Assembly (NCBI GenBank): GCA_003707065.3
Contig: PPXM03000005.1
Location: 600,501 to 664,500 of the forward strand
From: Trigonopsis variabilis
Lineage: Eukaryota; Ascomycota; Trigonopsidomycetes; Trigonopsidales; Trigonopsidaceae
Direction of reading: 5' to 3'
Length of the DNA stretch: 64,000 bases
Every line of letters starts with the position of its first letter. The stretch's first letter is position 1. Under the pieces are notes generated by a model. That model worked only from the letters and a program-made list of their open reading frames with translations. It was not told where the DNA came from and made no database searches. This document shows positions 4,366 through 59,497 of this stretch, one piece after another. A program made the position numbers and the translations under genes.

Positions 4366-4466
4366 GTTACGGTGGCCGAGTGGTTTTAAGGCGTTCGCCT
4401 GCTACCTCTGTTTAGCAGCTCAGTGAATTCCCTCTGGGAGCGCAGGTTCGAATCCTGTCCGTGACG
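4366..4466 (+). tRNA. tRNA-Ser (anticodon GCU) with a 17-nt intron
   Basis: A full cloverleaf can be folded: acceptor GTTACGG with CCGTGAC, D arm GCC/GGC, anticodon stem TTCGC with GTGAA, anticodon loop CTGCTA plus A, a long variable arm (CCC TCT GGG) that is typical of class II serine tRNA, T arm with loop TTCGAAT, discriminator G. The anticodon is GCT (GCU), reading AGC/AGU serine codons. An intron of 17 nt (4405-4421) sits after position 37, as usual for nuclear tRNAs, and contains TAGCAG, which can pair with the anticodon. A T tract follows at once. CCA is not encoded. Confidence 0.96.
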
Positions 4467-18305: not shown

Positions 18306-19678
18306 ATGAGCAATTCAGATCATACTGCAGCCCAGGGCGTCGAGCTTCCTCCTGTGAGGTCGAATCCCTATGCTGGCAACCCTGCGGATTATCTTTCAAA
18401 CGTCGGCCGATTCCAGATCATCGAGTCGACCTTACGTGAGGTAAGAGAATTCAAAGTCAGACGGCTGCTAATATTCAGGGAGAACAATTCGCCAATGCTT
18501 TCTTCACTACCGAAAAGAAGATCGAGATTGCCAAGGCTCTGAGTGATTTTGGAGCTGATTACATCGAGTTGACGTCTCCTGCTGCCAGCGAACAATCTCG
18601 CAAGGATTGCGAGGCCATCTGCAAGCTGGGCCTCAAGTCTAAGATTCTGACTCACATCCGGTGTCATATGGACGACGCCCGGATTGCCGTTGAGACTGGA
18701 GTTGACGGAGTCGATGTTGTTATTGGAACCAGTCAGTTTTTACGGACGTACTCGCACGGAAAGGACATGTCATACATTGCCCAGAGTGCGGTTGAGGTGA
18801 TTGAATATGTTAAGAGCCACGGAATTGAGATTCGGTTTTCTTCTGAAGACTCGTTCCGATCCGACCTTGTTGATTTGCTCAACATTTACCGCACCGTCGA
18901 CAAGATCGGCGTCAATCGGGTTGGTATCGCCGACACGGTTGGATGCGCCAATCCCCGCCAGGTTTACGAGCTCATCCGGACTCTCAAGTCGGTTGTTTCA
19001 TGCGACATTGAGTGCCACTTCCACAACGATACTGGTTGCGCCATTGCCAACTCGTACACTGCCCTCGAGGCCGGTGCTCTGCTGATCGACACGTCGGTCC
19101 TTGGTATCGGCGAGCGGAACGGTATCACTCCGTTGGGAGGTTTGATGGCCCGCATGGTTGTTTCTGACCGGGAGTACGTCTTGTCCAAGTACAAGCTCCA
19201 CAAGATTCGCGAGATTGAGAACTTGGTTGCCGAGGCCGTCGAGGTCAACATTCCGTTCAACAACCCCATCACTGGCTTCTGCGCTTTCACCCACAAGGCC
19301 GGCATCCACGCCAAGGCCATTCTTGCCAACCCCTCGACGTACGAGATTCTTCGACCGTCCGACTTTGGTCTCACTCGATACATCCATTTTGCCAACCGGT
19401 TGACGGGCTGGAACGCCATCAAGAGCCGGGTCGACCAGCTCAACCTGCATTTGACTGATGACGAGTGCAAGGAGGTCACGGCCAAGATCAAGAAGCTCGG
19501 CGATCTCCGCCAGCTCAACATCGACGATGTCGATTCGATCATTCGAGAGTACCACGCCGAGGCCCGGGCCACCACCCCTATCTCCAGCGAAGACAAGGCC
19601 AATGGCAAGATTGAGAACGGAAAGACCCAGGACAACGAGGAGACTGGAAGTCCTTTGAAGAGACAACGATCTGACTAG
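18306..19678 (+). CDS. LYS21: Homocitrate synthase
   Basis: Two exons, 18306-18440 and 18479-19678 (intron 38 nt), 444 residues. The intron splits the catalytic motif: STLRE at 41-45 joins GEQF, giving the DRE-TIM metallolyase signature. The barrel contains [13 protein letters not shown] (metal-binding His pair), GIGERNG, and near 290 the lid segment [15 protein letters not shown]. The protein condenses acetyl-CoA with 2-oxoglutarate to homocitrate, the first and lysine-inhibited step of the alpha-aminoadipate route found only in fungi and a few others. The C-terminal 40 residues are Lys/Glu-rich and end in SPLKRQRSD, a possible nuclear localisation sequence; in S. cerevisiae Lys20 and Lys21 are largely nuclear. 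The second exon has stronger synonymous bias to C than neighbouring genes, suggesting high expression. Confidence 0.95.
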
Positions 19679-22550: not shown

Positions 22551-23173
22551 ATGCCGGTAAGTTCCAGCCAGGCCGGGAATAACTGACGGCAGGCTTATCA
22601 TTCGACATTTTTATCGGAGCCAGACACACGAACGATTGGTAAATGGTACAAAAGGCTGGAGCTGACGGCAGGGAACTTTGCTTTGTTACCACTTCGGACG
22701 CAGTTTCGAGGGCCGGCTTACACTACGACGGATTATGATATAGTGGACGAGGTTGTGGATTTGTTTCGGGCCAATTGCTTGTTTCGCAACTTTGAGATTC
22801 TGGGCCCGGCCGATCGAACGTTGATCTACGGAACGCTCTTCATTTCGGACTGTCTGGGAAAGCTCAACAAAAATACATCGTTCAATGAGGCCAATCGGAC
22901 TCTAAACACCTTAGCGGTCGAGCACTTTTCGATTCCGGGCGACGCAGGGTTCCCGTTGAACTCACTCTACGCGCCCCCCAAGGATCGTCAGGACGGAGAG
23001 CTCCTGCGTCAGTACTTGACGCAATTCCGCCAAGAGCTGGCGCTTCGACTGGTCAATCGAATCTACAAGGATAACCCGGCGCAGCCATCAAAGGTAAGAG
23101 CCCAGAATGCTGTGCTAACTGGCAGTTTTGGCTGGCCTTCACTAGACGGAAGTTTATGAATAAAAGCCTATGA
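22551..23173 (+). CDS. ARC18: Arp2/3 complex subunit ARPC3 (p21-Arc)
   Basis: Four exons: 22551-22556, 22593-22638, 22672-23093, 23126-23173; introns of 36, 33 and 32 nt. The first exon encodes only Met-Pro, the second AYHSTFLSEPDTRTIG, the third NFALLPLRTQF onward, and the last FWLAFTRRKFMNKSL, which matches the ARPC3 C-terminus. The joins recreate the family sequence residue by residue (for example TIG-NFALLPLR and PSK-FWLAF). The protein is 173 residues, near the usual 174-178. ARPC3 is a structural subunit of the actin-nucleating Arp2/3 complex and contacts the base of the daughter filament; in yeast it works at endocytic actin patches. The 32-nt last intron is the shortest I could place in the window. 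Confidence 0.94.
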
Positions 23174-30122: not shown

Positions 30123-31277
30123 TTAACAGTCAATGAGATCAACGACCTCCAACTTGATGGGATAGCAGACAGTTCCAATGTCTTCGTTGTAAAGGTTGTA
30201 GAAGTCTCCAGACAAGCATTGGTAGAAGGTGGTTTGCGATCCAAGGGCAAGAGTGCCGTTGGGAGCAATAGACCAGCCCTTAGCATAGATGGCACCGGCT
30301 TGAGGGGGAGGACCATCGAATTGAAGTTGATGGTTGGCAACAACGGAGAAGATTCGTCCGTGGGAGTCCTTGATCACTTCGTCGGAAAGAGTAGCGTTCA
30401 AGTTACCAGCGGCATTGCAGGCAACCGAAGAAGAGTACTCCTCGTCGCTAGAAGAAGATGAAGAGGTGGCGGTAGCGTCAGCTTGGACTTGACCGTCAGA
30501 GATTTGAGAAGCAACGGTCTCAGTCTTGGTGGCAGCTTGGACTTGACCGTCGGAGATCTGAGAAATAACCTCAGCCTTGGCAGTAGTAGTGGCGGCTTGG
30601 ATTTGACCATCACCGATTTGAGAAACAACCTCAGCCTTAGCAGTGGTAGTAGCAGCCTGGATCTGACCATCGCCGATTTGAGAAATCACTTGGGCAGCGG
30701 TAGTAGGAGCTTGGATCTGACCATCACCGATTTGAGAGATGACTTGAGCAGCGGTGGTAGGAGCTTGGATCTGACCATCACCGATCTGAGAGATGACCTG
30801 GACGGCAGTAGTAGTAGCGGCTTGGATCTGGCCGTCACCGATCTGGGAGACGACTTGAACAGCAGTGGTGGTACCAGCTTGGATCTGGCCATCACCGATC
30901 TGAGACACAACAGCAGCAGTGGTGTGCTCGGCAGTTGTGGTGGCAGCTTGAACCTGACCATCACCGATCTGAGAGACGACAGCAGCAGCGGTGGTTTGCT
31001 CAGTAGTAGTAGCAGCTTGGACTTGACCATCGCCGATTTGAGAGACAACCTTGTTGACATCATGGGCAACAGCAGTGGTGGCTGGGACGGCAGTAGAGGA
31101 AACAGTGGCATTGCCAATGGTGACAATGGCCAAACCGAAAGTTTTGCTATATGAGGTAATGTATCCTGAAGGAGCAGTGGCCGAGGGGGTCAAGGTGGTC
31201 CAGGGCTCAGTGGGAACATAGGCCCCGAGCACGGTAGATGAGAAGGCGAGGGCAGAAGAAATCAGAGAATATTTCAT
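30123..31277 (-). CDS. PIR-family cell-wall protein with ten internal repeats
   Basis: A 384-residue secreted protein. Signal peptide: residues 1-18, cut probably after VLG-A. Ten PIR repeats follow (about residues 79-280), each with SQIxDGQ(I/V)QA; in PIR proteins the Gln of this repeat forms an alkali-labile ester with beta-1,3-glucan. The last two repeats have SQISDGQ. The C-terminus has exactly the classical spacing C-66-C-16-C-12-C, the last cysteine being the final residue. The protein lacks a Lys-Arg Kex2 site between signal and repeats, which many Pir proteins have. It is covalently bound to the wall and often stress-induced. A TATAAA box lies 46 bases before the ATG. Highly biased, valine- and alanine-rich codons suggest high expression. 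No GPI signal is present, as expected for the family. Confidence 0.95.
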
Positions 31278-38221: not shown

Positions 38222-40055
38222 ATGGGAACCGCAAAGAAAGAGAAAAGTAGGAGGGTGAGAGAAGGGCAGACCAAAGATGGGAATCTGCGAGTGAAGGGGG
38301 AGAATTTTTACAAGTAGGATAATCGCTGGAGCTGTCGATGCTAACTTTATAGGGATGCAAAAAAGGTGCGTCACTTGAACATGTATAAGGAGGGGCGAGC
38401 GATTCGGGACGCCAATGGAAAAGTCTTGAAGGCAGCGGCCTTCCAGTCGTCGGAGATTCCAAAGGCAAGGGTTGAGCCGAATAAACGATGGTTTGGTAAC
38501 ACTCGAGTCATTGCTCAGAATGCGCTCGACCATTTCCGAGAGGCTATGGGTAACAAGGCACATGATCCTTACCAAGTCTTATTAAAACGGAATAAGCTTC
38601 CAATGTCGTTGCTGGAAGAGCCAGGGAAGACTGCCAAGGTCCACATCGTCGAGACCGAGCCGTTCAAGGATACGTTTGGTCCCAAAGCCCAGAGAAAGAA
38701 GCCCAAGATCTCGGCTAGTACGATTGAGGACTTGGCCCAAGAAACCAGTAAATCACAAGAAGACTACGAAGAAAAGCTAGAGAATGATCTGTTGAAGTCG
38801 GTGGAAACTCCTACTGACTGGATTCAGGAGGCTAGAGAGGCTGTGTTTAGCAAAGGCCAATCCAAGCGGATCTGGAATGAACTTTATAAAGTCATTGATT
38901 CGTCTGATGTGGTTGTACATGTGCTTGATGCTCGAGACCCGCTGGGAACTCGATGTAAGTCTGTGGAGCAGTATATTCGAAAAGAGGCGCCCCATAAACA
39001 TTTGATATTTGTCCTCAATAAATGCGATTTGGTCCCTGTTTGGGTTGCGGTAAGTGAACTTTGCTTTTGTTTTGTTGTTTTTTCTGTCCCATTGTTATGT
39101 CAAGGTATCAGTTGCTTTAATCGGCTTAATTTTCTATACTGGTGCCTGTTACAACGATGGAAGATAAAGACTGCCCACTTCAACCTTCCGTTTTGGAATG
39201 GCCCAGGGTATGTCGAGCTACATTATGAGTTGGGAGTTGACTAATCCCACGTTTCCTCTCCTGGTTGTGTCGCTTATATTTGTTTTTCTCAAAACGCTAT
39301 CTTCGTTTCTTTTCAAGAACCTCAACTAACTCTTCTAGGCAGCTTGGGTCAAAATCCTGTCAAAAGACTACCCTACTTTGGCCTTTCATGCTTCCATTAA
39401 ACATTCCTTTGGCAAGGGTAGTTTAATTCAGCTGTTGAGGCAGTTTTCGATCTTGCATTCCGATCGCAAGCAGATTTCTGTCGGCTTCATTGGTTATCCC
39501 AACACCGGCAAATCTTCTATAATCAACACGTTAAGACAAAAGAAGGTTTGCACTGTTGCGCCTATTCCGGGTGAGACCAAAGTTTGGCAGTACATCACGT
39601 TGATGAGACGCATCTTTTTGATCGACTGTCCGGGTGTCGTGCCTCCAAACAGCAAGGATACCGAGGAGGATATTCTGCTGCGGGGTGTCGTGCGGGTTGA
39701 GAAGACTTCCAACCCAGAGCAATACATTCCTGCTCTTCTTGCTCGATGCAAGGAGACGCATCTCAGCCGAACGTATGAGATATCAGGGTGGAGAAATGCA
39801 TCTGAGTTTCTGGAAATGCTTGCGAGAAAAAATGGGCGATTGTTGAAGGGAGGAGAGGCTGATGAAGGCGGCATCGCCAAGATGGTTCTGAACGATTTCA
39901 TGAGGGGCAAGATTCCCTGGTTTGTTCCTCCCCCGATGGACCAGCTTGATCATGACAAGGAAGCCCTCGAAGATGAGTTCAACAAGGCGAACGAGCAAAG
40001 TGGTGAAAATGAAGACGAAAATGGCAGTGGAAACAGTTCAGACGAAGAGGGTTAA
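38222..40055 (+). CDS. NOG2: Nog2/Nug2, nucleolar GTPase of 60S biogenesis
   Basis: Three exons, 38222-38313, 38353-39049, 39339-40055; introns 39 and 289 nt; 501 residues. The N-terminus [23 protein letters not shown] is the Nog2 signature. The GTPase motifs come in circularly permuted order: G4 NKCDLVP near 251, G1 GYPNTGKSS near 313, G3 DCPG near 360, as in the YlqF/YawG family. The tail is acidic. Nog2 binds the pre-60S particle near helix 69 and is exchanged for Nmd3 before export. The second intron is far longer than the others in the window and houses an H/ACA snoRNA, listed separately, as does NOG2 of S. cerevisiae (snR191). Reading through that intron gives a spurious 67-residue tail. 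Confidence 0.95.
39089..39240 (+). ncRNA. snR191: Intronic H/ACA snoRNA, snR191-like
   Basis: Lies within the 289-nt NOG2 intron. Its first hairpin is textbook: lower stem CCATTGTT (39089-39096) with AACGATGG (39153-39160), pocket ATGTCA (39097-39102) and GTTAC (39148-39152), upper stem AGGTATCAG (39103-39111) with CTGGTGCCT (39139-39147), then the H box AGATAA (39162-39167) 14 bases after the 3' pocket start. The pocket GTCA...GTTAC pairs with GUAAC-U-A-UGAC of 25S helix 69, putting the U at Psi2258 (S. cerevisiae numbering), which is one of the two known targets of snR191, also in a NOG2 intron. A second hairpin can be drawn (39170-39182 with 39226-39237). Its ACA box and target are unclear, so the 3' end is approximate. 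Confidence 0.8.
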
Positions 40056-40577: not shown

Positions 40578-42895
40578 ATGAACCTCATGATTTCTCGGGG
40601 AATGATACGACTCTCGGGAAGATGGGGAGTTTCCCGGAATCTTGGGGCGAGATTCAGTACATGTGCTAGATGGTACGCCAAGATCGACCAAGATGGCGAC
40701 GTATCAGTCGAGACCATCGCCAAGAACCTCAGTCCTCGAGATAAGGCTAGCCTGAGCCATATGAGAAACATCGGGATCAGTGCTCATATTGATTCCGGAA
40801 AGACGACGTTCACTGAGCGGGTCTTGTATTATACGGGTCGAATCGATTCCATCCACGAGGTAAGTACAAGCTGCAAAGACGAGTGCGCTAAGACGAATAG
40901 GTGCGAGGACGTGATAACGTGGGCGCCAAGATGGATCATATGGAGCTTGAGCGAGAAAAGGGAATCACCATTCAGAGCGCTGCTACTTATACAAGCTGGG
41001 ATCGAAAGAAGAACGATGAGGTGAAAAAGTATCATTTCAACATTATCGACACGCCTGGCCATATCGACTTCACTGTTGAGGTTGAACGGGCTCTACGAGT
41101 CTTGGATGGTGCGGTTCTTGTTGTTTGTGCCTCGTCGGGAGTGCAGAGTCAGACCATGACTGTTCATCGGCAAATGAAGAGATACAATGTTCCTAGAGTG
41201 ACGTTTATTAACAAGATGGACCGTCTAGGAGCGGATCCTTGGAAGGCGATTGAGCAGTTGAATGCAAAGCTCAAGCTGCCCGCTGCCGCTATCCAGATTC
41301 CCATTGGAGCCGAGGATAAGTTTCAAGGAGTTATCGACTTGATCCACCGCCGGGCCATCTATTTTGAAGGTCCCAAAGGTCAATACATGGTTGAGTCTGA
41401 CGAGATTCCCGAGGAACTGAGAGATTTGGTCGAGCAGAAGCGAACGACGCTGATCGAAACTCTGGCCGACGTCGACGACGAAGTTGCCGAGATCTACTTG
41501 AATGAGGATATCCCAACTGAAGTTCAGATTGAGGAGGCCATCAGAAGAGCAACCATTGGCTTGAAATTCACTCCAGTGTTGATGGGCTCTGCCCTGGCTA
41601 ACAAGGGCATCCAGCCGGTGCTGGATGCAGTCTGTGATTACTTGCCTCACCCTGGTGAAGTGCAAAACAAAGGATTTGATCTTAAGCGGAACGAGGCTCC
41701 CGTGACGATGATTCCCTACTCTGACATGCCCTTTGTGGCCTTGGCGTTCAAACTCGAAGAAGGCCGCTACGGCCAGTTGACGTATCTCCGTGTCTACCAA
41801 GGTCGACTTCGCAAGGGCACTCAGATCACAAACGTGCGAACGGGAAATAAGACCAAGCTCACTCGATTGGTGCGAATGCACTCAAACGAAATGGAAGATG
41901 TCGACGAAATAGGTCCCGGTGAGATCTGCGCTACGTTTGGCGTCGACTGTTCTTCTGGCGATTCGTTCACCGACGGCAGTGTCTCTCTCAGTATGGCCAA
42001 GATGTACGTTCCAGACCCGGTCGTCTCGTTGTCGATTACCCCAGTCCAGCGTGATAGCGCGAACTTCTCTAAGGCCCTCAACCGATTCCAGCGAGAAGAC
42101 CCTACCTTCCGAGTGTCTTTTGATGCCGAGTCTAAGGAAACTCTGATTTCCGGCATGGGTGAGCTCCATTTGGAGATCTACGTCGAGCGGATCAAGCGAG
42201 AGTACAAGGTGGAATGTGTGACTGGAAAGCCGCTCGTTGCCTACCGTGAGACAATCTCCAAAAAGGTTGACTTTGACTATACCCACAAGAAGCAGTCTGG
42301 TGGTGCTGGTCAGTATGCCAAGATCATGGGCAACCTCGGCCCTGCTCCATCTAAAGATAACGTTTTCAAGCAGTCTGTCGTCGGTGGTGCTATTCCTGAC
42401 AAGTACCTGCTCGGATGTGCCCGAGGATTTGAGGATGCGTGCACCAAAGGACCTCTCACTGGACACCCCGTCATTGGCGTCGAGATGGAAATCAACGACG
42501 GTGCGACTCACGTGGTCGATAGTAGTGACTTTGCTTTCCGCTACGCGACAAACATGGCCTTCCAGCAGTACTTTCTCAAAGCCGACCCGGTCATCTTGGA
42601 ACCTATTGTCGACGTCAACGTCGTTGCGCCTGCCGAGTTCCAGGCTAATGTGATTGGACTGCTCAACAAGGGCGGAGCCGTGATCACTGACACGGATATC
42701 GGAGTCGACGAGGTCCAAATCAAGGCTGATTGCTCGTTGAACGCCATGTTTGGCTTTGCCACCAATCTCCGCGCTGCCACTCAGGGTAAAGGCGAGTTTA
42801 CCATGGAATTTAAGACCTATGCTCCTACTCCACCCCATCTCCAGAAGCAACTGGTCGATGAATACCAGAAACGTATTCGGGAGAAGCAAAAATAG
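40578..42895 (+). CDS. MEF1: Mitochondrial elongation factor G1
   Basis: Two exons, 40578-40859 and 40901-42895 (intron 41 nt), 758 residues. A basic presequence (about 1-35) is followed by the GTPase domain: P-loop AHIDSGKT at 69-76, switch II DTPGH at 144-148, NKMD at 198-201. The join [26 protein letters not shown] rebuilds switch I. Domains II to V follow, with [14 protein letters not shown] near 500 and the family-specific [10 protein letters not shown] near 537. The alternative factor Mef2 (recycling) and Rrf-type GTPases are less likely because of overall length and the presence of the full set of translocase motifs. It catalyses translocation of mitochondrial ribosomes. A 386-codon antisense frame (41882-43042) inside it is a codon shadow. 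Confidence 0.95.
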
Positions 42896-51458: not shown

Positions 51459-52907
<1,449 letters not shown>

Positions 52908-56700: not shown

Positions 56701-57267
56701 ACACATCTCGGTCCGTTGACGTCACAAAGATCCTACTCAGTCGAGATTTGAGAACGTTCGATATTCCGTCTAGACATTCTTGTAAGACGTCTATCTCGGG
56801 AGCCTTGGCATTGACCTTCTTGGTCGCTCCAGTAGCAGTCGTGGATGTGGACGTCTTTGGCTTTAACATGGTCAAAAGGCAATTATTCAAGAAACCCCAG
56901 ATCTCTAGAGACTTTCTATATTCGTCCAGCTGTGTCTCGCTTTCGTCTATAGCCTGGTTTATGACATGGCTGCTCGAGCCAAGTCCCTCAAGAACCGTCG
57001 TGGCTACTTTTCTCGATATCTTTTGCGGTAAGTTGGGGAGCTCACTACAACCGTTAGTTCCTCCTTGGCGGCTGCTTACCGAATCAAGTTGATCGCCCCA
57101 TCGCGCGTATCTTCGTTCAGGATGCATTGTGGATCCTGTTTGATGTTTTCCGACAGTTCGAGTACCTGCTCCGAGGCTTCGTGAGCATTCAGACTCTCTT
57201 TATCTGTAGACCTGTCTGATATCTCATTTGACCAGTCTTCAATGGCCTCAGCTAACTGGAAGTCCAT
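53789..57267 (-). CDS. YCS4: Condensin complex subunit Ycs4 (Cnd1/CAP-D2)
   Basis: Two exons, 57080-57267 and 53789-57044 (intron 35 nt), 1147 residues. The join NLIR-ELPNLPQKISRKVATT is continuous with the family. HEAT repeats cover nearly the whole chain, with the N-terminal condensin-D2 block (about 60-200) and the conserved CND1 region near 960-1040 (LPLILEIMAHSPDAITRSNTVLAVGDMTVCFN and NACVQRTCLMTLTFLILAGQVKVKGQLGEMAKCLED). Acidic residues separate the two HEAT blocks near 490-540. Ycs4 is the HEAT subunit of condensin that loads DNA in mitosis together with Brn1. Length agrees with yeast Ycs4 (about 1176). The start is fixed by the first exon MDFQLAEAIEDW. Confidence 0.94.
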
Positions 57268-57969: not shown

Positions 57970-59497
57970 ATGAATGAAAGCAGCCAAGGAGGACTGGTCT
58001 CCTCGTCTACTTGCGCCAGAACCCAGCGCTCGAAACAGGAGGAATTGACGCTAGTGCAAGAGTTTGAAGATAAAGGCAAGAAGAAGGCTCGGATAGAGGA
58101 CGAGATTCATCATGACGATGTCAGTGAGACCAGCATAGACCGCACACCCTCGCCGAGTGACGACGAATACTCGAGCGAGGAGGAGGTTAGCGGCCAGGTA
58201 TTAAAAGATATAAATGATTTAAATGCGTCGTTTGATGGTCTAGACCAGGAATTCAATCTGGTGAAGAAAATTGGAGAGGGAACCTTCAGCACCGTGTACT
58301 TGGCCATAGATCTCAAGTGCCGGTTTAGTAACTTGATCTACCGACGATTTGATCTTGACAATTGGAAAGCCAAGCATCCTCACAAGATCCACCCCGTGCA
58401 GCATCTGGCGATGAAGAGAATCTATGCTACGAGCAGCCCGGCAAGAATCATCAACGAGTTGAAGCTCGTCCATCGGCTGGCAGCCAACAATAATCATATT
58501 GCTCCTATTCTATGTGCCATGCGCCATAATGACCAGGTCTTGGCCATCTTACCCTACTATAAAAACGATGACTTTCGAGTACGTTCTCCTGCCTCCAGGC
58601 GCCGGCTAACTTGATCTAGAACTATTATAAAACACTGCCGCCAGATGATATCTTGACCTACATGAAAAGCTTACTGTCAGCTCTCAACTGGATCCATCAA
58701 AACAACGTCAGCCATCGCGATATCAAACCCGCCAATTTCCTTTACAACGTCAAACGGCGAACCGGAGTCCTGGTCGACTTTGGGCTGGCCGAACCGTCAT
58801 TCAATGGATCCGACCATCGGATTTCCAACCCGCTCTTTGACGAGCCCAAAGACAAGGCTTGTTTCTGCCGCGAACCGGAAGACAGCAAGCTCAAGCACCT
58901 TCACGCTTCTCGACCCCTTCACGGATACAGCAAGAACGACCAACGGCCGGGAAAACGGGCCAATCGAGCGGGCACCCGAGGGTTCAGGGCCCCTGAAGTT
59001 CTCCTCAAATGCATGAGCCAAACAACAAGTAAGTTCTCTTGAGCAGGCAATGTTTGAGCTTTACTTACCTTTTTCTAGAAATAGATATCTGGTCCGCCGG
59101 CGTCATCTTGCTTGCTTTCCTTACCAAGCGTTTCCCATTCTTCAATTCGGCTGACGATGTCGACGCGTTGATAGAGATAGCGTCCATCTTTGGCTATAAA
59201 TCCTTACAAGCTTGCGCCCTTCTACATGGCGAAGTGTTTGAAACCAACATACCCACAATCCCCAGAGAGCCTATGCCACTGGAGGAGATCATCGACTGGG
59301 CAAACGGCCGGTCGCCTGGCCCCTCGTCTAAGCGCTCTTCGCAGGAGAAAAAACTAATCACGCTGCTCCGCCTGATGCTTGAGCCCAATTTCCTGAAAAG
59401 AGCAGATGCGCATACGCTTCTCAAAAGCCCATTGCTCGACAAAATCGAATATCATTCTCGCTGGTGGTATAGCGACGATAACGATCCGTCGTCTTGA
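57970..59497 (+). CDS. CDC7: Cdc7 kinase (DDK catalytic subunit)
   Basis: Three exons, 57970-58578, 58620-59028, 59079-59497; introns 41 and 50 nt; 478 residues. The ATP loop is GEGTFSTVY near 92, the catalytic loop SHRDIKPANFLY near 236, DFG in VDFGLAEPS, and the APE motif in RGFRAPEVLLKC. The kinase insert between the DFG and APE holds FCREPEDS, and the second insert near 400 is short; this gap-rich layout is Cdc7-specific. The joins KNDDFR-NYYKTLP and SQTT-KIDIWSAGVI are family-consistent. With Dbf4 it phosphorylates Mcm2-7 to fire origins. The first 75 residues are acidic and Ser/Thr-rich. It is divergent from YCS4. Confidence 0.95.

Follow-up and report, generated by a model that had tools for sequence, protein, structure and literature searches.

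NOG2 intron 2 of Trigonopsis variabilis very probably carries snR191, a predicted guide for two pseudouridines of 25S rRNA

snR191 and its host gene in described yeasts

In S. cerevisiae, snR191 is reported to guide modification of 25S-2258 and 25S-2260 in helix 69 (PMC8307265). The host gene, the snoRNA, its targets and the idea that host and guide are coordinated are already in print (Lim et al. 2021, PMC8476143), and the position of the NOG2 intron was kept in 72% of the fungi studied by those authors. According to PMC5033589, snR191 lies outside NOG2 in C. parapsilosis and C. orthopsilosis, and PMC4202332 describes loss of the NOG2 intron in K. africana, where a copy of snR191 lies elsewhere, and loss of both in N. 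dairenensis.

Removal of the NOG2 intron in S. cerevisiae is reported to cause a fitness defect (glycerol medium, 37 C) with Nog2 mRNA and protein levels unchanged, and a plasmid with intron-bearing NOG2 restored growth (PMC10667330). As loss of the intron hurts growth at unchanged Nog2 levels and the plasmid rescues it, it is the intron itself that brings the benefit, and the link between host and guide is therefore one of shared supply rather than demonstrated coupling. The original prediction had seen an appealing functional link in a guide and a GTPase that act on the same rRNA region. As a suggestion this link is in print (PMC8476143); tight coupling fares less well, as the published S. 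cerevisiae intron data and the moves and losses of snR191 weigh against it (PMC10667330, PMC5033589, PMC4202332). A review places Nmd3 contacts at H38, H69 and H89-90, with most Nmd3 sites overlapping those of Nog2, and Nog2 near H89 (PMC5425277); a position of Nog2 near helix 69 is consistent with this overlap.

We analyzed a 64,000-nt stretch of T. variabilis DNA (hereafter the window) that contains NOG2. Like S. cerevisiae snR191 (RF01263), the RNA described here is hosted by a NOG2 intron, is assigned to the H/ACA class and has 25S U2258 and U2260 as its predicted targets. Its intron position and snoRNA content are the same as in the NOG2-intron snR191 genes described across fungi (PMC8476143; Hooks et al. 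2014, PMC4202332; Hooks et al. 2016, PMC4937481), with no substantive difference from what these accounts describe. It is shorter, at ~195 nt; the S. cerevisiae RNA measures 274 nt according to PMC12389098, and a compact form like the present one helps to pick out the parts that the S. cerevisiae RNA could do without. As a member of a known family, the window snR191 is ordinary and well conserved, and it adds one further species; the conservation of host gene and target across yeasts, as put forward in the original prediction, is real, though already published (PMC8476143). In a yeast whose other introns are mostly <45 nt, the locus supports the view, already published, that snR191 is the reason why the NOG2 intron is kept.

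NOG2 intron 2 and the snR191 family match

The host gene and its introns are as follows.

38222-40055 (+): NOG2 gene, 501-aa GTPase of pre-60S maturation; exons 38222-38313, 38353-39049 and 39339-40055
38314-38352 (+): NOG2 intron 1, 39 nt
39050-39338 (+): NOG2 intron 2, the snoRNA host, 289 nt, phase 0, GTAAGT...CTAAC..AG

Excision of intron 2 leaves an uninterrupted 501-aa Nog2 reading frame. The spliced protein contains the Pfam domains NGP1NT (3.1e-56) and MMR_HSR1 (2.7e-19), and its top PDB match is Nog2 (7ug6_m, E 1.4e-230), in an alignment that is free of gaps at both exon junctions. Intron 2 has GTAAGT at its 5' end and 8 nt from CTAAC to the intron end, the closing AG counted in. A NOG2 intron is the usual, though not a required, location for snR191, and it is the location found here.

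A mechanical scan of the window returned 83 intron candidates, among them many that overlapped or were improbable. Among the 12 that were spliced, we accepted the following by eye.

18441-18478: intron, 38 nt
22557-22592: intron, 36 nt
57045-57079: intron, 35 nt
58579-58619: intron, 41 nt
51603-51686: intron, 84 nt

The remaining seven of the 12, including candidates of 143 and 264 nt, were neither accepted nor rejected. A 41-nt intron (40860-40900) lies in a gene that, judged by eye, resembles mitochondrial EF-G. The introns accepted as real, mostly by eye, measure 35, 36, 38, 39, 41 and 41 nt, plus the one of 84 nt, and among these the original description of the 289-nt NOG2 intron as an outlier against introns of "mostly 32-44 nt" is broadly right. 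The 84-nt intron, about twice the usual length here, is in a gene recognized by eye as encoding a RuvB-like ATPase; our Rfam scans listed nothing inside it.

Searching the 64-kb window with all 4227 Rfam families, including the snR191 covariance model that the original prediction had named as a check, produced a match of RF01263 to 39087-39254 (38.8 bits, E 2.6e-5; E 1.2e-7 when the NOG2 intron was searched alone). We count this family-model match as significant by its E value, at a score below the curated gathering score of 46; because the snR191 score falls below that cut-off, a default Rfam search lists only a tRNA. Weak matches of ceN30, IRES_Bip and Afu_309 in the window were below their own gathering scores and were taken as chance.

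The proposed RNA extends beyond the Rfam match:

39087-39281 (+): snR191 H/ACA snoRNA, proposed extent 195 nt, comprising the 5' hairpin, H box, middle hairpin, 3' hairpin and ATA box plus 3 nt

We infer that snR191 ends at ~39087 and ~39281. The unconstrained minimum-energy fold of 39087-39281 consists of three hairpins, the last of which is 39215-39275. The original extent of 39089-39240 has to be revised, as 39240 falls within the 3' hairpin. Rfam's window alignment ends at 39254 and leaves 73 model positions unshown, and therefore gives by itself no support for the proposed 3' hairpin; Rfam searches of 39160-39290 alone and 39205-39285 alone returned no match. The alignment places the ACA column of the model on ACG (39249-39251). 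We did not adopt this placement, given that the alignment skips 73 positions of the 3' hairpin and that a box-free scan for U2260 found no pocket at a matching spacing.

Two predicted guide hairpins

From its sequence, the NOG2 intron RNA is almost certainly the snR191 box H/ACA snoRNA, with a 5' hairpin placing U2258 and a 3' hairpin placing U2260. By analogy with baker's yeast, it very probably directs two ribosomal pseudouridines. For the targets we assumed the letters of S. cerevisiae 25S helix 69, including GUAACUAUGACUC. The 5' part of the RNA has the following features.

39089-39160 (+): 5' hairpin; lower stem CCATTGTT (39089-39096) / AACGATGG (39153-39160), 10-bp upper stem AGGTATCAGT (39103-39112) / ACTGGTGCCT (39138-39147)
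39099-39102 (+): first guide pocket, 5' strand, GUCA, pairs with UGAC
39148-39152 (+): first guide pocket, 3' strand, GUUAC, pairs with GUAAC; target U2258
39162-39167 (+): H box AGATAA, spaced 14 bases from the first pocket strand; RF01263 has AGAuUA at the aligned positions

All nine pairs between GUCA/GUUAC and the S. cerevisiae U2258 target are Watson-Crick, and the AGATAA that follows the 5' hairpin fits the H box pattern ANANNA. The fold of 39089-39169 is more stable than expected (z -3.18, none of 200 shuffles as stable), and that of 39089-39224, which includes the middle hairpin, reaches a z of only -1.64 (15 of 200 shuffles as stable). The lower stem, the GTCA/GTTAC pocket and the AGATAA at 14 bases were as originally described; the upper stem, given there as 9 bp, is really 10 bp.

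When a pocket scan of the intron required ANANNA or ACA, it found the first pocket only, with strict and loose thresholds alike. The U2260 pocket emerged only once the box condition was dropped. With the final thresholds, which were set after the U2260 pocket had been seen, the 5' part of the intron gave one hit, for U2258, equalled in 8 of 40000 shuffles, and the 3' part gave one hit, for U2260, equalled in 2 of 40000. Shuffles with a pocket for any of the seven uridines of the region numbered 44 of 40000 (3' part) and 22 of 40000 (5' part). On the + strand of the real window the same final scan gave three hits (U2258, U2260 and, near 41104, U2268), on the - strand a single hit for U2269, and 403 one-strand window shuffles gave 243 hits in total (17 for U2258 and 4 for U2260). 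At looser thresholds, a U2258 pocket appeared in 42 of 20000 whole-intron shuffles and 235 times in 910 one-strand window shuffles, and the real window, both strands together, contained nine partly overlapping hits versus 4613 in those 910 shuffles. Single pockets therefore mean little at that looseness, and the U2258 pocket alone is not unique. A weak box-free hit, AGT/TGG at 39113/39231 (3 + 3 pairs), was dropped.

The 3' part of the RNA has these features.

39215-39275 (+): 3' hairpin; lower stem GAGCTACAT (39215-39223) / GTGTCGCTT (39267-39275) with one U.C mismatch, upper stem 5 bp
39227-39230 (+): second guide pocket, 5' strand, GAGU, pairs with ACUC
39262-39266 (+): second guide pocket, 3' strand, UGGUU, pairs with AACUA with one G-U; target U2260
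39276-39278 (+): ACA-type box, ATA, spaced 14 bases from the second pocket strand; the RNA is expected to end near 39281

GAGU/UGGUU forms nine of nine pairs, one of them G-U, with the S. cerevisiae U2260 target. Both hairpins have a spacing of 14 bases, where the count starts at the first base of the 3' guide strand and runs to the box's first A; a published figure of 15-16 nt for eukaryotes uses a different count, from the modified site (PMC7991803). AUA is a known alternative to the ACA box (PMC7991803). H/ACA snoRNAs carry this box three bases ahead of their 3' end, which here would fall near 39281. The original prediction had described half of the RNA: its Psi2258 hairpin stands, and it missed the 3' guide hairpin for Psi2260 and the ATA box.

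Its coordinates suggest another reading, in which a two-hairpin H/ACA RNA ends at the ACA of 39220-39222 and has 39169-39214 as its 3' hairpin. This ACA is the sole one from the H box to the intron end, and 39169-39214 does fold into a hairpin. Nevertheless, the 3' strand of the internal loop begins at 39202, 18 bases before the ACA rather than 14, and is only 4 nt long; 39166-39224 folds no more stably than expected by chance (z -0.97, 40 of 200 shuffles); and the better supported 3' hairpin at 39215-39275 has this ACA within its lower stem. We therefore rejected ACA 39220 as the closing box, for its spacing of 18 and its place within a stem, and regard an RNA of this shape as very improbable.

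Agreement with the Rfam consensus and a second locus

We scanned bacterial and archaeal genomes once with the NOG2 last exon and obtained 43 pattern matches, one of which encodes a relative (locus L001); among viral contigs, six stretches fit the pattern and none was a relative. L001 is 80% identical and lies on a 107-kb contig, NYXK01000235.1, titled Deltaproteobacteria, from which we fetched 10.6 kb (64347-74946 of 107036). Given its intron-bearing NOG2 and snR191, this contig is apparently fungal. Its filing under a Deltaproteobacteria MAG (isolate CPC1) is a probable case of contamination of a public bacterial genome.

The NOG2 intron of L001 (4672-5000, 329 nt) lies at the same codon boundary as window intron 2 (VA|AAWV) and matches snR191 with 43.0 bits (E 3.3e-7), likewise below the gathering score of 46. 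It contains GTCA/GTTAC and GAGT/TAGTA pockets with 14-base spacings. Window and L001 thus share the codon boundary, the spacings, the first pocket and the GAGT 5' strand of the second; they differ in that L001 has the longer intron, a larger middle domain, an ACA box, TAGTA in the second pocket and AGATTG in place of AGATAA, an H-box-like sequence that violates ANANNA at its last base.

The Rfam consensus resembles the window in its GUCA/GUUAC and GAGU/U-purine-GU pockets, in its spacing and in an additional domain that separates the H box from the 3' hairpin. The consensus 3' hairpin has GAGUUG in the left arm, UAGUA in the right arm and ACA 14 bases further on, and L001 is identical in these; the window counterparts are GAGUUG, UGGUU and ATA at the same 14-base spacing. 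GAGUUG at the 5' side of the second pocket is therefore common to all three. The U2260 guide of L001 and that of the consensus each form eight of nine pairs. Relative to the Rfam model, the window has a shorter 3' hairpin and middle domain, ATA for ACA and UGGUU for UAGUA. Where the library model is insufficient, careful anatomy has here recovered the second guide with its variant box.

We compared window and consensus pair by pair, using the pockets to fix the register by hand. In the 5' upper stem, 10 of 10 positions are paired in both, four with changes on both sides. All six tabulated pairs of the 5' lower stem are kept, three with two-sided changes; within Rfam's own structure, which excludes the sixth pair, this is two of five. 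The 3' lower stem, in the hand-set register, has eight of nine positions paired in each sequence, which also share the position of the mismatch, and three of the nine have two-sided changes. L001 keeps six of nine pairs in the 3' lower stem and six of eight in the 5' lower stem. When the 3' hairpins of window, L001 and consensus were aligned with MAFFT, their 3' arms stayed unaligned.

These comparisons bear on the possibility that the 5' hairpin alone works as a guide, for Psi2258, and that the 3' part is degenerate, with U2260 modified by another RNA or not at all. Rfam does not recognize the 3' part alone, the box is ATA rather than ACA, and the upper stem of the 3' hairpin is just 5 bp. 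However, GAGUUG, a nine-position lower stem with its mismatch in the same place and the 14-base spacing all agree with the Rfam consensus, three of nine lower-stem pairs have changed on both sides, and only 2 of 40000 shuffles equalled the pocket. A lone 5' guide is, in our judgment, quite unlikely. The proposal that snR191 guides Psi2258 from the NOG2 intron is supported by the independent covariance model, the second locus and covariation. That the intron is simply long and holds a chance hairpin, with no snoRNA, would fit a candidate known here from its sequence and scoring under the Rfam gathering cut-off; set against an independent covariance model, two matched pockets, a conserved host position and a second locus, this explanation is vanishingly improbable.

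Under the preferred reading of a two-guide snR191, the RNA would be processed from the spliced NOG2 intron and then assembled with the H/ACA proteins, Cbf5 and its partners Nhp2, Nop10 and Gar1, on whose binding pseudouridylation by such RNAs depends. The 5' hairpin would offer GUCA/GUUAC to 25S helix 69 and position U2258 for isomerization, and the 3' hairpin would offer GAGU/UGGUU and position U2260. The sequence itself shows the family match, the two pockets, the two boxes at their spacings, the host intron and the covariation; we infer that the RNA is transcribed and processed and that the modification takes place, and that the source yeast has the usual helix 69 sequence.

Between the two guides lies a further element:

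39169-39214 (+): middle hairpin, after the H box and before the 3' hairpin; its tip, CCGTTTTGG at 39188-39196, is aligned by Rfam to consensus CCGUUuUGg

The tip reads CCGTTTTGG in the window and CCGTCTTGG in L001 (4838-4846), and CCGUYUUGG also occurs in the Rfam consensus. Homology between the tips of window and L001 is not established, because Rfam aligns them to different parts of the model. It is conceivable but unlikely that the middle hairpin is a third functional domain of snR191, such as a protein-binding site or a second contact with pre-rRNA; if so, it could help both guides to find their place on helix 69, or link modification with 60S assembly.

Two further features of the window were observed. 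Rfam places an intron-bearing tRNA at 4366-4466 (42 bits), probably a serine tRNA with anticodon GCT as judged by eye; ARAGORN, run on the window with the bacterial code, listed no tRNA, unlike Rfam. At 30123-31277 (-), the window encodes a 384-aa, secreted-looking protein with ten repeats of one type, identified by eye, which we take to resemble the yeast PIR cell-wall proteins.
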